NCBI GenBank assembly: GCA_022843485.1
Contig: JALHNM010000001.1
Span: 372,001-436,000, forward strand
Source: Fimbriimonadaceae bacterium
Lineage (GTDB): Bacteria; Armatimonadota; Fimbriimonadia; Fimbriimonadales; Fimbriimonadaceae
DNA: 64,000 bases
Reading direction: 5' to 3'
The notes below the pieces were generated by a model. That model was not told the origin of the DNA, made no database searches, and saw nothing but the letters and a program-made list of their open reading frames with translations. The position numbers and the translations under genes were made by a program. This document shows positions 8,785 through 51,548 of this stretch, in pieces (position 1 is the first letter of the stretch; every line of letters starts with the position of its first letter).

Positions 8785-9407
8785 CAGGCGGCCTCCGAGA
8801 CGCCCATCCTCTCGAGGAGGAGGCTTAGACCCGCCTCGTTCGGCATGCAAAGGAAGTACCCGGGCGTCCGGGGTGTGCCCTCCATCCGGATGTCCGTCTC
8901 GAGAACGAGCCCCAGGAGGTCCCGGATCTCGGCCTCGGCCGCCACGGTCGAGAGGATCGACGTGACGCTGTCGATGGACACCATCGGTGGGGTCGCGTGC
9001 ATCCGCAGCCCGGTCAAATCGGAGATCGCGTTCAGAAAGCTCGAACAGATGATGTTCCCGACTTCGAGGGTGGCGGAGGCGGCGAGCTCGTCCACATCGT
9101 CCGGGGTCGCGGGAGCCTTACCGACGAGCGTGGCCCAGAGCACCTGGGCGCTGTCCCAGGGGAAGACGTAGGCCGTCTGTCCGACGACGTCGCCCTCGAA
9201 GTCCATGTAGACGGCGACCATCACGTCCTCGCGGCCGCCGACGAACTGGGGGACGTCCTCCAGGACGAGCCGTTCGACGACGGGCACGTCCATCACGTAG
9301 GTTTGGCCGGTCAACCCGGCGAGCGCGGTCGCGGCATGGCCCAACCCGATGTTGGCCATCTCCTTGACCGCTGACGATTGTAATAGCCCCAGCCCTTGTG
9401 TGTTCAT
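8784..9407 (-). CDS. cheC: CheY-P phosphatase CheC
   Basis: The 207-aa protein has two copies of the E-x2-N active-site helix: EMANIGLGHAATAL near residue 16 and LEVGNIICSSFLNAI near residue 115. This distinguishes it from one-site CheX. In well-studied cases CheC is a weak CheY-P phosphatase stimulated by CheD, whose gene follows with an overlapping stop/start. It is the first gene of the minus-strand che operon and is divergent from the biotinyl-domain gene across a 138-nt gap. Confidence 0.92.
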   Translation of the reverse strand: MNTQGLGLLQSSAVKEMANIGLGHAATALAGLTGQTYVMDVPVVERLVLEDVPQFVGGREDVMVAVYMDFEGDVVGQTAYVFPWDSAQVLWATLVGKAPATPDDVDELAASATLEVGNIICSSFLNAISDLTGLRMHATPPMVSIDSVTSILSTVAAEAEIRDLLGLVLETDIRMEGTPRTPGYFLCMPNEAGLSLLLERMGVSEAA

Positions 9408-9956: not shown

Positions 9957-10333
9957 AGACCCGGGGGAACGGGCTCGTCGGCGTCCTCGCCGCTGTCCTC
10001 ATCGTCGTCGTCTTGGCCTTGGTGTTCACCGTCGGCACCGGCGCGCTGACCGGGAAGTCCAACCTGCCTCCGAGGCCGGACGGTCAAGGGCAGACCATCG
10101 TCGGCCGGAGCCTGGCCAAGGCCAGGGACACCGAGTGCCGTTCGAACCTCGCTCAGGTGCGCCTGGCGATCCAAGTGGCCACTGACCCGGTCGACGGCTC
10201 CAAACCCGCCGACCTCGCCTCGGTCCGCGTGCCCGCCGAGTTCCGCAAGTGCCCGGTCGGCGACGAACCGTACAAGTACGATGCAGCGGAGGGTACGGTC
10301 TCTTGTCCCCATCCCGGTCACGAGAAGTACTGA
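9953..10333 (+). CDS. Membrane-anchored pilin-like protein with C-terminal Cys motif
   Basis: This 126-aa protein has one N-terminal membrane helix (GVLAAVLIVVVLALVFTVG) and a small periplasmic domain with RSNLAQVRLAIQ. The C-terminus is FRKCPVGDEPYKYDAAEGTV followed by SCPHPGHEKY. Such CPxxxxxYxY...CPxPxHEKY tails are common on small type II/IV secretion-associated pseudopilin-like proteins. It lacks a clear prepilin peptidase F-T-L-I-E site. The GTG start overlaps the preceding stop (GTGA) and its stop overlaps the accC start (TGATG). The placement between two carboxylase-like genes is unexpected. Confidence 0.72.
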   Translation: MKTRGNGLVGVLAAVLIVVVLALVFTVGTGALTGKSNLPPRPDGQGQTIVGRSLAKARDTECRSNLAQVRLAIQVATDPVDGSKPADLASVRVPAEFRKCPVGDEPYKYDAAEGTVSCPHPGHEKY

Positions 10334-12327: not shown

Positions 12328-13434
12328 GTGGAACTTTCCAGGATCGCCACTGCCGTCGTGACCCTCGCCCTCGGCGTACAGGCCGTCGCGGACGACGTCC
12401 AGGTCGGTGCGACCAAATCCGCCGGGATGGCGAGCGCGGGCCTCGCCCTCCGCTCGAACAAGGGTGGGGGCGACCCTCGCAACCCCGCCATGTACGCCTT
12501 CTCGCAACGGTTCCGAGTGACCGATCTGAACTTCGGCACCCACGCCCGGGGCCTGAGCCTCCGCCGCGGCGGCGAACTCCTCGGCAAGCTGTCTGACGGT
12601 GGGCTCGACACCGACAAGCTCGTCGAGATCGCGAGGGAGTTCGGCGACGACCGGGTGTCGTTCGGAAGCCGGGTGTCCCTCGGCCTCGCCTCCTCGGGGT
12701 TCAACTTGGGTCTTGAGGGGCTCGGCATGGTGGACAGCGTCCCGAACGCAGCCCTGCGCCAGTGGGTGCGCAACGGGGCCGACCTCAACGCCCCCGACCC
12801 GGCAATGCGGCTGGACGGCTACGGCTACGCCCACGGGTTCGTGAGCGTCGGGTACGGTCGCACCCTCCCAGCGCGGGACGGGTCCGAAATGGCCGTCGGC
12901 GTGGACGTCAAGTTCGTCGAAGCCTACTACTCGCACCACCGTGTCGATGCGGCACAGATCGTCTCCGGCACCGCCACCAACACCGGCGCGCCCGAGATGC
13001 TCGGCGAGGACGTGCTCAAGCGACGCGGCGTCGCCGCCGACTTCGGGTGGTACATGGCCACCGGCCCCGAGAAGCGACTCGAGGTCGCCGCCGTGATCCG
13101 GAACCTCGCCCGGCCCGACACCGGCTTCACCGGCACCCTCCCCGGCTCGGACGCCCCCAACCGCACGGACATCGAGCCGTTCGAGCGCTCCCTCGCCGTC
13201 GGGTTCGGCTACACCCACAAGGCCGGGGCCCAGGGGGCGTTCGACGTGGTCGGGATCGGCGGGCGCAGGGCCGAGGTCAGGCTCGGTGTGGACGTCCCCT
13301 TCGGCCGTCTCTTCTCGGCCCGGGCGGGCTATGGGAGCCGAGGTGGGCTCACGGCCGGGCTCAGCGTCGCCGGAATCACCCTTTCGGTCGGCACAGCCAA
13401 CGCCTTCCAAGCGGGGACGTTCTTCCGGTTCTAA
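12328..13434 (+). CDS. Outer-membrane beta-barrel protein, TraF/UPF0164-like
   Basis: The 368-aa protein has a signal peptide (RIATAVVTLALGVQAVADDV) and then alternating Gly-rich amphipathic strands typical of a beta-barrel, such as GFVSVGYGRTLPARDGSEMA and RSLAVGFGYTHKAG. It ends in Phe (GTFFRF), as outer-membrane proteins do. The layout resembles the conjugal-transfer TraF-type/UPF0164 outer-membrane family. Its role is unknown. The GTG start is adjacent to the promoter, and a nested hairpin follows the stop. Confidence 0.7.
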   Translation: MELSRIATAVVTLALGVQAVADDVQVGATKSAGMASAGLALRSNKGGGDPRNPAMYAFSQRFRVTDLNFGTHARGLSLRRGGELLGKLSDGGLDTDKLVEIAREFGDDRVSFGSRVSLGLASSGFNLGLEGLGMVDSVPNAALRQWVRNGADLNAPDPAMRLDGYGYAHGFVSVGYGRTLPARDGSEMAVGVDVKFVEAYYSHHRVDAAQIVSGTATNTGAPEMLGEDVLKRRGVAADFGWYMATGPEKRLEVAAVIRNLARPDTGFTGTLPGSDAPNRTDIEPFERSLAVGFGYTHKAGAQGAFDVVGIGGRRAEVRLGVDVPFGRLFSARAGYGSRGGLTAGLSVAGITLSVGTANAFQAGTFFRF

Positions 13435-48397: not shown

Positions 48398-48526
48398 GCC
48401 GTTCAGGCTACCCGCGTCTCACGGGGGTCGGCGGCGTCCAGAGGCAGCGAACGTGCTAGGGCACCGGGGCCCCTCTGAGCCTGATCGAGACGTCGGAGGG
48501 CGGGCCCTGGTATCCTGCACCCGGGC

Positions 48527-48612
48527 GCCGGGATGGCGGAATGGTAGACGCGGTGGTCTCAAACACCATTGGCCGCGAGGTCGTGCGGGTTCGAGTCCCG
48601 CTCCCGGCACCA
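48527..48612 (+). tRNA. tRNA-Leu (anticodon CAA)
   Basis: Acceptor GCCGGGA (48527-48533) pairs with TCCCGGC (48602-48608). The anticodon arm has loop CTCAAAC, so the anticodon is CAA. A long variable arm (TGGCC-GCGA-GGTCG) marks a class II tRNA, and the T arm is GCGGG-TTCGAGT-CCCGC. A genomic CCA follows discriminator A48609. TATCCT 10 nt upstream is a plausible -10 box. Its 3' half from 48570 is duplicated at 50415. Confidence 0.96.
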
Positions 48613-48658
48613 CGGGCGTAACGGCGGCCCCTGCCGAGCGTCCCCCCCTCGATGAGGA
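48570..48658 (+). repeat. 89-bp direct repeat, left copy (tRNA-Leu 3' half plus flank)
   Basis: From TGGCCGCGAGG in the tRNA variable arm to GATGAGGA, this stretch matches 50415-50503 in 88 of 89 positions; the one difference is C48645 versus A50490. It contains 40 nt of the tRNA 3' end, the CCA and 46 nt of downstream flank including a start-codon-like ATGAGG. It is the left boundary of the putative integrated segment. Confidence 0.9.
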
Positions 48659-48696
48659 GGGTCGCCCCGTTCACCCCCATGCCCAGCGACCGGGAG

Positions 48697-49779
48697 CTAC
48701 TTGTCAAGGTAGAGCGTCTCGTCGAGGGGCCACGAGTCGCTGAAGCGCCGCCCGAAGTGGGTCGTTACTCCTCGAGGCGTTCTCACCGATTCGAATCGGC
48801 CCCACGACACAGACCCGTCGAGGCGGAGTCGGGCGACTCGGCCCATGAAGGCGAAGCACGGGCTCTCGTCTGCCTTCTTCGGGATGTTCGGGCCGTCCCG
48901 AAGCAGGTCCGCGAAGTCCGAAGACCTGCGACCGTGAACCCGCGACACGACGACGCCCATGTTGGGGTCCCAAGCCACGAGCTTCTCCCACGTGAGGTAT
49001 CTCGTGAACATTCTGAGCGATTCGAAGGACGTGGGTACCTTTGCCGGACTGCGCCAGGCTCGCCGTTCACAGGTGAGGCCGAACCCTGAAGGGAACGGGT
49101 CGCCTGGCGAGCGCAGGACGGCCGGGTCCGAGATGAGGCCGGTCGTGACGAGTGGGTCGAGGTTCGGGGGCAGTCCCGGGACTTCGTCACCGCCGTAGAG
49201 GCCCAGGGCCGTGCCGACTTGACGAAGGTTCGAGACCGTCGTCGTCGCCTCGGCCTCCCTGATGCCGTGCCGATAGACGCTGGTCACAAGACCCGAGAGC
49301 AGAGCAACGATCACGGTCGCGACGAGTACCTCGACGAGGGTGAGCGCGGTCCGGGTGGTGCGGGGCCCGCTCGGGGCTCGGCCACGCTCGCCCCAACCGA
49401 GGAACCACGTCGCGACCGCGAGGTTGACGAGGACGAGGGAGACGAGCAGGAGGGGGAACGTGACCAAGCTCGTGTTCGGGCCGAACACGACCCGGACTTG
49501 GACGTGGGAGACGACCAAGAATACGGCCGAAACCCCCACGGTGAGGAGCATGCCCGTCCGGAACGGGCGCCTGGCTACGAGGAACGGGGTCACCATGGCG
49601 GCGACGATGGCCATCGTCAGCCAGACGCCGATGTGCCCGTACAGGCTTTGCTCTCGGAAGCGCAGAGGGGAGTTCCAATCCAGGAGGACGAGGACGAGCT
49701 GCCCGGCGACTCCCACCCCATAGGCGGCGAGCCGAGGAATCCAGCCGAGCCCTTTGCCCTGGCTCGTAGGGGTCGGCAT
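48697..49779 (-). CDS. Polytopic membrane protein fused to an internal prepilin-like domain
   Basis: The 360-aa protein starts with four hydrophobic segments (about residues 15-35, 47-67, 74-94 and 103-127). A prepilin-type hydrophobic helix follows, TRTALTLVEVLVATVIVALL (about 142-161), with the L-T-L-V-E sequence seen at type IV prepilin cleavage sites. The rest is a pilin-like domain: TTTVSNLRQVGTALGLYGGD, DPAVLRSPGDPFPSGFGL and a WGRFESVRTPRGVT C-terminus. A prepilin site after a polytopic domain is very unusual. The ATG at 49779 overlaps the stop of the Cys-rich gene upstream (TGATG), so the two are co-translated. Confidence 0.75.
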   Translation of the reverse strand: MPTPTSQGKGLGWIPRLAAYGVGVAGQLVLVLLDWNSPLRFREQSLYGHIGVWLTMAIVAAMVTPFLVARRPFRTGMLLTVGVSAVFLVVSHVQVRVVFGPNTSLVTFPLLLVSLVLVNLAVATWFLGWGERGRAPSGPRTTRTALTLVEVLVATVIVALLSGLVTSVYRHGIREAEATTTVSNLRQVGTALGLYGGDEVPGLPPNLDPLVTTGLISDPAVLRSPGDPFPSGFGLTCERRAWRSPAKVPTSFESLRMFTRYLTWEKLVAWDPNMGVVVSRVHGRRSSDFADLLRDGPNIPKKADESPCFAFMGRVARLRLDGSVSWGRFESVRTPRGVTTHFGRRFSDSWPLDETLYLDK

Positions 49780-50336
49780 CAGCTAGGCTCCGCTCGGCTT
49801 TCGCACCTCTTCTCGCCCGGAAGGGCACACGGACCTGGCAGCGTCGACGGCGGATCGCAACAGATCCTGCTCGACTCGCCGTCCGGGGAGCAGTTCGGCT
49901 TCATCTGCCCCGCGTTCACCCATGGGCCGCAAATCACGTAGAGTTCCGCACTCTCGCACCGGTATTTCTTGGCCGTCCGACGGAGCAGCTCGTTCTTGAC
50001 CCAGGGCAGCCAAGAACAGTCCCAAGTCTGCCTCTTGCACCAGTCCTGAGCGTTGCAGCCTACGTAGTCACACCCTGGATCTTCGCACGTGTAGCTGGTG
50101 TTGTCCCCGGCCCGCTTCGTTTCAGGGCTGTACAGGGCATTCAGAAGGGCTTGGCGAGACGGGTCTTCGACCGAGCAGCCGGAGGCCCGGACCGGGGCAG
50201 CGTCATCGACGATCGAGCCGACTGCCGCTAGCGACCGGGTGGTCGCGTCGAGCCCCCGCGCGGCCGATTCGTCGTTCGCCCAAAGCGCCACGTTGAGAAG
50301 GGTGAGGGCTGGGATGAGAAGTAGGGCACGTTTCAT
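49779..50336 (-). CDS. Secreted cysteine-rich protein of unknown function
   Basis: The 185-aa product (from ATG 50336) has a signal peptide (RALLLIPALTLLNVALWAND) and a mature part with 13 cysteines: SGCSVEDP, YTCEDPGCDYVGCNAQDWCK, WDCSW, YRCES, YVICGPWVN, PNCSPDGESSRICCDPPS, GPCALPG and KRCES. The pattern suggests several disulfides in a small extracellular domain. I do not recognise the family. It is the first gene of a two-gene unit with the membrane/prepilin fusion. A TACACT box lies 9 nt upstream of this ATG. Confidence 0.7.
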   Translation of the reverse strand: MKRALLLIPALTLLNVALWANDESAARGLDATTRSLAAVGSIVDDAAPVRASGCSVEDPSRQALLNALYSPETKRAGDNTSYTCEDPGCDYVGCNAQDWCKRQTWDCSWLPWVKNELLRRTAKKYRCESAELYVICGPWVNAGQMKPNCSPDGESSRICCDPPSTLPGPCALPGEKRCESRAEPS

Positions 50337-50414
50337 GGCATGGCCAGTGTAGGGGTCTAATTGCCCATTCGGGCCCTCGTAGGGCTTAATACTTCTTTTA
50401 GAGAGGCGTCCACC

Positions 50415-50503
50415 TGGCCGCGAGGTCGTGCGGGTTCGAGTCCCGCTCCCGGCACCACGGGCGTAACGGCGGCCCCTGCCGAGCGTCCCACCCTCGATGA
50501 GGA
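50415..50503 (+). repeat. 89-bp direct repeat, right copy (truncated tRNA-Leu)
   Basis: This copy contains the tRNA variable arm, T arm, 3' acceptor strand and CCA but no 5' half, so it is not a functional tRNA gene. It runs into the first codons of the secreted protein gene at 50497, which was presumably adjacent to the tRNA before insertion. The 78 nt between the Cys-rich gene and this repeat are AT-rich (TTAATACTTCTTTTAGAGAG). Confidence 0.9.
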
Positions 50504-51051
50504 CGCTCGCTTCAGTCATCGCCCTCGTGTGCGCCGGGGTGGCCTCCGCCCAGAGCCTCACCTTCTACTCGGGCGGTGAGATCCCTTGGCGGCAGCTCGA
50601 CAACCGGTTCGACGGTCGCCTCCGCGAGGCGCGGGTGGACGTCATCCGGTCCCAACCGGACTGGGAGTCTTACACCGGCGCCCAGACGGGGTTCGGCGGG
50701 GCCCGGGTGGGGACTCTGCTTCGGCCGGACTTCTGCCGCCAGCAGGTGATCGCGATCAACCTCGGCACCGAGCGGGCTTGGATGCGGCGGGTCTACGTGA
50801 CCTCGGTCCGGCCCCGGGACTCCTTCACCTGGGAGATCCGAGTCAAGATCGATGCCCTGGACGGGGCGGCCGAGGACGTTCCGACCTTCCTGAGCCCCTA
50901 TGTGACGGTTCTGACCCCGCTCGGGCCGGACGACTACGTCGTGGTCTTCGACACGCCCGAGGGCCGGGACATCGTCGAACTCCGGTCGCCGCCGCGCCTC
51001 TACGTCGCGCCCGTCGACCCGTGGGGCGAGCGTCGGGGGCGAGGGCGGTGA
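50497..51051 (+). CDS. Secreted PrcB_C-like protein 1
   Basis: The 184-aa protein has a signal peptide (RTLASVIALVCAGVASAQSL). Its mature domain has VIRSQPDWESYTGAQTGF, FCRQQVIAINLGTERAWMRR and a beta-rich end, resembling the PrcB C-terminal-like fold in which an S-x-x-W motif precedes a v-v-x-x-x-G strand. Its first codons lie within the right copy of the 89-bp repeat. The stop overlaps the GTG start of the next gene (GTGA), which encodes a similar domain. Function unknown. Confidence 0.7.
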   Translation: MRTLASVIALVCAGVASAQSLTFYSGGEIPWRQLDNRFDGRLREARVDVIRSQPDWESYTGAQTGFGGARVGTLLRPDFCRQQVIAINLGTERAWMRRVYVTSVRPRDSFTWEIRVKIDALDGAAEDVPTFLSPYVTVLTPLGPDDYVVVFDTPEGRDIVELRSPPRLYVAPVDPWGERRGRGR

Positions 51052-51548
51052 GGCTCGCCGCCGCGCTGGTCCTCGTCGCTGGGTTGGTCGGTGCAGCCCC
51101 CGCCCTCGGCGAACAGCAGCGCCCGACCCGACCCAAGACCATGACGTTCGTGACCGTGACCTCCGGCGACCAAGCGTTCGCGGCCTCTGAGCCCGTACTC
51201 GTTGCCCGTTCCGAGACCGAGTGGGTCTCGCTGGCCAATTCTCTCGCGATCGACGAGGAGCAGCGCGCTTCGTTCCGCCAGAAGGGTGCGGCCCTGGACG
51301 GGCTCGACTGGGCTAAACACCAGCTCGTGTTCGCCCGGGCCCCGGAGCAACCGACCGGCGGCTATCGGCTCGAAGTGACCCGGATCGTGGAGGCTCGACC
51401 CGGGGCCTGGACGCTCGAGGCCCGGGTACGTAAGCCCAACCCCGACGATCTCGTGATGCAGGTCATCACCACCCCCTGGACGATCGTCCGGACGGCGAGG
51501 ACGGCCTCTGTGCCTCGTCTCCAACTTGTGAAGGATCGAACGCGTTAA
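51048..51548 (+). CDS. Secreted PrcB_C-like protein 2
   Basis: The 166-aa protein (GTG 51048, coupled by GTGA overlap) has a signal peptide (RLAAALVLVAGLVGAAPALG). The mature domain has ARSETEWVSLANSLAID, DWAKHQLVFARAPEQPTGGY and RLEVTRIVEARPGAWTLEAR, the P-T-G-G-Y strand being characteristic of PrcB_C-type proteins. It probably acts in the periplasm or outside the cell as a binding or protease-associated domain. Its stop overlaps the convergent folE2 stop region by 4 nt. Confidence 0.74.
   Translation: MRLAAALVLVAGLVGAAPALGEQQRPTRPKTMTFVTVTSGDQAFAASEPVLVARSETEWVSLANSLAIDEEQRASFRQKGAALDGLDWAKHQLVFARAPEQPTGGYRLEVTRIVEARPGAWTLEARVRKPNPDDLVMQVITTPWTIVRTARTASVPRLQLVKDRTR

Follow-up and report, generated by a model that had tools for sequence, protein, structure and literature searches.

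A recombinase-less 1.76-kb insert between 89-bp direct repeats at tRNA-Leu(CAA) in a Fimbriimonadaceae genome: a candidate non-autonomous islet

Genomic islets that carry no integrase of their own between att-like repeats are well established. Cis-mobilizable elements (CIMEs) have att-like ends and no integrase (PMC5704250), and in Dehalococcoides 15 ssrA islands without an integration module lie between repeats of the ssrA 3' end (PMC3146451). Long direct repeats can also arise by transposition, with variable target duplications of 8-514 bp reported for IS1549 and IS1634 (PMC2266710), and homology-facilitated illegitimate recombination or merodiploid-type outcomes of transformation are the subject of two further papers (PMC3784515, PMC8116780). 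The locus described here lies in a 64-kb stretch (the window) of a 2.96-Mb Fimbriimonadaceae genome, in which a segment of 1756 bp (48659..50414; 1845 bp from repeat start to repeat start) sits between two direct repeats at a tRNA-Leu(CAA) gene and is absent at the orthologous site in two relatives, G001 and G016.

The repeats, at 48570..48658 and 50415..50503 on the plus strand, differ at one of 89 positions (C at 48645, A at 50490), and a looser alignment extends to 96 bp with 96.9% identity. All exact direct repeats of at least 20 nt within the window derive from this pair, and a whole-genome search with positions 48520-48660 as query finds the 89-bp unit twice in the genome, both copies in the window. 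ARAGORN calls one tRNA in the window, a complete tRNA-Leu(CAA) of 86 nt (48527..48612, plus strand; Rfam tRNA score of 59.1 bits for 48527-48609), the 3' half of which lies inside the left repeat. The left repeat is made up of the last 43 nt of the tRNA, a 39-nt spacer and 7 nt of a gene start (ATGAGGA); the right repeat holds the last 43 of the 86 tRNA nucleotides and the native 39-nt spacer, and ends 7 nt into the gene at 50497. The earlier note had claimed a match of 88 in 89 bases at these coordinates, a left copy that completes tRNA-Leu(CAA) and a right copy with the tRNA 3' half alone, and all three points are borne out. The repeat begins 3' of the anticodon arm, excluding the anticodon loop, and overshoots the tRNA by 46 bp into the next gene; these 46 bp are not needed for restoring the tRNA.

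The state of the site before insertion is visible in relatives. In G001, a member of the same genus, 38 bp separate tRNA-Leu(CAA) from a 50497 orthologue (47% identity), which prcB follows, and G016 has tRNA-Leu, the 50497 orthologue (46% identity) and prcB in the same order, with the insert absent from both; the site in G025, where prcB follows tRNA-Leu, matches this empty arrangement in part. In the window the native neighbours lie outside the insert, and comprise a gene for a 184-aa secreted protein (50497..51051, plus strand), whose orthologues directly follow tRNA-Leu in G001 and G016, and a gene for a PrcB_C-domain protein (51048..51548, plus strand; Pfam PF14343, E=1.3e-11), whose orthologues follow tRNA-Leu in G001, G016 and G025. 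The right copy is the native tRNA-gene junction and the left copy its duplicate, because the 39-nt spacer in the right repeat fits the 38-nt geometry of G001. The empty sites in G001 and G016 show that the site acquired 1.76 kb and that the target was duplicated in the process, confirming the proposal that the 50497 gene formerly followed the tRNA directly; this was an insertion at the 3' side of tRNA-Leu. The insertion is recent, since the repeats differ by one mismatch in 89 bp and both reading frames of the insert are open. Other sources to consider are a local duplication that has nothing to do with the insert and an artefact of assembly, given that slippage can repeat a sequence in place and that the assembly consists of 20 contigs, but the absence of the insert from the relatives' orthologous site, the homologues of its genes elsewhere and the position of the repeats at its boundaries make either very improbable.

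Two genes lie between the repeats, both on the minus strand and neither matching a recombinase, and the GC content of the insert (65.5%) is only slightly lower than that just outside (69-71%). The gene at 48697..49779 encodes a 360-aa fusion of an N-terminal membrane domain (about four TM segments) and a type IV prepilin/pseudopilin-like domain, recognised from domain matches and from homologues of the two halves; the matches of the pseudopilin part to N_methyl (E=0.006) and to a GspG-like domain (E=2.8e-4) are both below the cut-off. The fusion is real as sequence: where the two parts join, neither a stop nor an in-frame start was seen in the printed DNA, and a fused homologue also occurs in G030. 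In G025, in G046 and at a second locus of the window genome (G000:C6) the two halves are separate neighbouring genes, located downstream of a Cys-rich gene. In the window the Cys-rich gene, at 49782..50336, encodes a 185-aa Cys-rich exported protein from a family in which C89, C107, C127, C159 and C178 are invariant and W139 and R120 nearly so. These genes form a recognisable module, in which a Cys-rich exported protein is followed by a membrane protein and a pseudopilin, fused in the case of the window. As judged from domain type only, the module probably serves to bring the Cys-rich exported protein and the pseudopilin to the cell surface or into a type II/IV secretion-like filament; the predicted structures of the two insert proteins are of very low confidence (pLDDT 44 and 43). 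The description of the insert in the earlier note, as a membrane/prepilin fusion and a Cys-rich secreted protein with no integrase, agrees with the two ORFs found, and its suggestion of surface-type cargo agrees with genes that look, by domain type, like cell-surface genes. A cassette delivering surface proteins is plausible. The second module of the window genome, with unfused Cys-rich, membrane and pseudopilin genes (L038 6453-8132; G000:C6:140453-142131), lies about 1.5 kb from tRNA-Trp and has no flanking repeats.

The Cys-rich family has five invariant cysteines in twelve aligned members, has no match in Pfam, NCBIfam, PADLOC or PDB, and has no solved structure. In a profile search it is patchily distributed, being found in 20 of the 113 genomes of the order and in 15 of 47 genera; certain genomes carry several copies, and G001 has none. 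Named relatives assign the group to Fimbriimonadales/Fimbriimonadaceae, and a tree of the family contains no well-supported branches. A phage or plasmid source was considered and rejected: the fusion protein has no match among annotated plasmid proteins, the Cys-rich protein none among phage proteins, and the tRNA-Leu att sequence is absent from IMG/VR.

The window genome encodes four tyrosine recombinases, all outside the insert and the nearest about 78 kb away; two are Xer-like, one belongs to an element at tRNA-Met and one lies in another region, on contig C10. All four score far below the cut-offs for integron integrases, and an integron cassette was rejected on this ground. There is no serine recombinase in the genome. 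The earlier note had proposed looking for a tyrosine recombinase elsewhere that uses this att site, and for other inserts bounded by the same 89 bp; no recombinase specific for the site was found, and neither the genome nor IMG/VR contains another element with this repeat. The tRNA-Met element (about 8.5 kb; G000 contig C19, L040) is bounded on one side by tRNA-Met and on the other by a 91-bp copy of the tRNA 3' part with 90% identity (329-418 and 8843-8930), and encodes a tyrosine integrase (1069-2397) and an AAA_25 ATPase. It is a genuine tRNA-integrating element of the ordinary type, and its presence shows that such recombinases occur in this genome. The repeat of this element begins near the anticodon and stops at about the end of the tRNA, whereas the repeat in the window starts and ends later. 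The proposal that the locus is the footprint of integration at a tRNA attachment site therefore divides into two: insertion with target duplication at the 3' side of tRNA-Leu stands, given the empty sites in G001 and G016, but an origin by a tRNA-type integrase does not follow, given the 46-bp overshoot that the tRNA-Met repeat lacks.

Another possible source of target duplications, of any length and without sequence specificity, is the capture of a fragment at a double-strand break, in which end joining fills in long overhangs, and a filler-like 86-bp gene fragment is found elsewhere in the genome (L102). Ku (PF02735) is, however, absent from the window genome, which is 98.8% complete, and six of seven further genomes tested lack it as well. 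Ku-dependent end joining was rejected for this absence, and capture by end joining in general is hardly credible. Ku is present in G001, of the same genus (L131; G001:C1:549417-549956).

Some related modules in other Fimbriimonadales genomes also lie between repeats, each formed by the end of a gene at that locus. In G025 (L037, G025:C20, 9226-12894 and 18171-18211), two tandem modules have a full DUF4139 gene on one side and, on the other, 139 bp copied from the tail of that gene (90.6% identity), with a third, shorter tail copy between the modules, and the junction sequences upstream of the two modules are 97% alike over 70 bp. In G008 the flhA tail is duplicated after the module (112 bp, 89%), an extra tail fragment not reported for any of the 18 further genomes that had flhA in the same search, and in G022 the duplicated tail (51 bp, 88%) is that of a fumarylacetoacetase-like gene. 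At the G004 and G033 loci the repeated 42 bp correspond to the start region of a Kef-type transporter gene. The duplicated tails of G025 and G008 end at the stop codon, and that of G022 goes three bases beyond it. None of the repeat-flanked modules in G025, G008, G022 and G004/G033 contains a recombinase, and no common core sequence is seen among the repeats of the different loci.

Several further features were seen at these sites. The two repeat copies in G033 (L054 7849-7890 and 9092-9133; the same in G004, L053) hold different perfect palindromes, CCCCATAATGGGG and CCTCATAATGAGG, so that the palindrome persists while its bases differ. The junction motif of G025, TTCAAACCGGGACGTTCG followed by (GA)n, also occurs 5.5 kb away, after the stop codon of another gene and ahead of a short ORF with Cys codons; the idea that it marks element ends throughout the G025 genome was rejected, since its copies number three, all within 7.4 kb. 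Simple repeats lie just upstream of modules, (GA)n in G025 (L037 12690-12725) and (CT)n in G046, and in G008 a G run separates TTGACA and TAACTT, which resemble −35 and −10 hexamers; the tracts are located at L068 5420-5500, L037 12690-12725 and L055 8770-8790. It is possible that these tracts are phase-variable promoters, which would make expression of the relatives' surface modules phase-variable. A pattern search detected no such tract and no sigma-70-like promoter at the window module.

Long, locus-specific duplications (42-139 bp) that leave both flanking genes intact are what transposition of the IS1549/IS1634 kind, with long variable target-site duplications, would produce when acting on a non-autonomous passenger, and the sequence CCGGGACGTT(T)CG (12-13 bp) occurs, by eye in the printed sequence, in inverted orientation at the two outer ends of the G025 array. 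Inspection by eye of the window insert and of the G008, G022 and G033 modules, however, revealed no matching terminal inverted repeats. In addition, the whole window genome has one DDE_Tnp_1 transposase and none inside the insert; of five other genomes tested, four (G008, G025, G033 and G004) have none, and these four carry scars. Transposition is an improbable source of the repeats, and no enzyme was found that would support an IS1634 origin.

The favoured reading, to which we assign a probability of about 0.45, is that the insert is a non-autonomous, CIME-like islet that entered at tRNA-Leu(CAA) with duplication of the 89-bp junction, its recombinase acting in trans or having been lost with a larger element. 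A foreign module would enter as a circle or a fragment and be joined between tRNA-Leu(CAA) and the secreted-protein gene by a trans-acting recombinase; alternatively, the insert may be what is left of a larger element whose integrase was lost. In either case the duplicated 89 bp spares both neighbours, with the left copy completing the tRNA and the right copy keeping the spacer and the start codon. A second reading, somewhat unlikely, is natural transformation by incoming DNA in which the module adjoined a homologous stretch, with homologous pairing on one side and illegitimate joining on the other, in which the recipient's own gene end is left as a remnant and the modules are frequent passengers with no mobile element involved. 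It explains why repeats and their lengths are specific to each locus, why a recombinase is absent, why the copies are 88-97% identical and why the repeat spans the native spacer and a gene start; the 46-bp overshoot and the absence of a shared core favour one-sided homologous joining. The same 46 bp, being more than an attP needs, speak against a CIME-like islet, as do the exclusion of the anticodon loop, the failure to find a recombinase specific for this site, the lack of a common core among loci, the absence of a second element with this repeat and the fact that most modules carry no scar. On the other side, three repeats end at the stop codon or at most 3 bp from it, which random joins would not favour and which favours an element that restores its target gene, and the G025 tandem, with its shared 70-bp junction (97%), looks site-specific and favours site-specific accretion. 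On balance, a CIME-like islet moved in trans is slightly favoured over transformation-associated recombination.

How closely the modules are tied to such repeats was assessed in sampled stretches. Among 28 Cys-rich loci besides the window, collected without regard to repeats, host-gene-tail repeats were found at two and not at about 26, the other repeats at these loci being REP-like or due to paralogues; the G022 and G004/G033 loci were found through similarity to the fusion protein. Control positions had repeats of at least 50 bits in 7 of 231 cases, and those inspected proved to be paralogues or satellites, apart from a copied gene-internal fragment (L102) and a position that turned out to be a module (L053). 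The link between the module and host-gene-end repeats is suggestive, not proven, and the lack of a scar at most modules is perhaps due to age. Repeats are not a general attribute of prepilin genes, a possibility rejected from about 35 canonical prepilin loci of the window genome, where the repeats are those of paralogues or satellites. By eye, repeats at G042, G058 and G008:1755328 were discarded as REP-like dispersed repeats, and that at G059 was discarded as likely HTH-domain paralogy. Elsewhere in the window genome, L106 (G000:C12:8000-27900) and L130 (G000:C6:20000-39900) hold GC-rich dispersed repeats, 35-200 bp long and REP- or satellite-like, that occur in clusters. In L102 (G000:C1:39000-58900), a stretch of 86 bp (10077-10162) in the central part of a gene for a 1017-aa protein recurs at 12432-12517 (97.7%), about 2.3 kb away, past that gene and a PEP-CTERM-like gene.

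A broader proposal would be that Fimbriimonadales carry recombinase-less micro-cassettes of 1.2-3.5 kb that shuttle Cys-rich, pseudopilin and membrane modules between gene ends by one common mechanism in trans, the duplicated gene end restoring the target and some cassettes having phase-variable promoters; as a whole this is rather unlikely. Should a single mechanism exchange the modules as whole units, they would represent a gene-cassette system of very small size serving surface diversity in the poorly studied Armatimonadota, and a handle on how integrase-less islets move. Otherwise the locus is no less a clear case of an islet whose empty site is known and whose scar is precise, and it brings to attention an unnamed Cys-rich protein family coupled to pseudopilins.

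Set against known systems, the insert resembles tyrosine-integrase tRNA elements, such as that at tRNA-Met, in having an intact tRNA at one end and a copy of the tRNA 3' end at the other, but it has no integrase, replication or transfer genes and its repeat is differently placed; an autonomous element of that type has an integrase near one end and a repeat confined to the tRNA between the crossover and the 3' end, and the insert shows neither. With IS1549 and IS1634 the modules have in common long, variable and locus-specific direct repeats, although the insert has no transposase and, by eye, no matching terminal inverted repeats. Integron gene cassettes are likewise small cargo units without a recombinase of their own, whereas the modules are units of two to three genes at scattered sites, with no integron integrase and with repeats that are host gene ends. 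Compared with CIMEs and the Dehalococcoides ssrA islets, the insert is just 1.76 kb with two genes and cargo of a different type, its repeat overshoots the RNA gene by 46 bp and enters the neighbouring gene, a search for a helper element sharing the repeat found none, and the target gene ends of the relatives' modules are varied. In common with them it lacks an integrase and is bounded by direct repeats that include an RNA-gene 3' end, and the tandem accretion known from them is paralleled in G025. Of the features by which a CIME is recognised, att-like repeats at the tRNA 3' end, no integrase or transfer genes and an empty site in relatives are found here; a further one would be functional att sites used by a helper integrase, and no helper with this repeat was found in the genome or in IMG/VR. 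CIMEs and integrase-less ssrA islands are the closest known kind.
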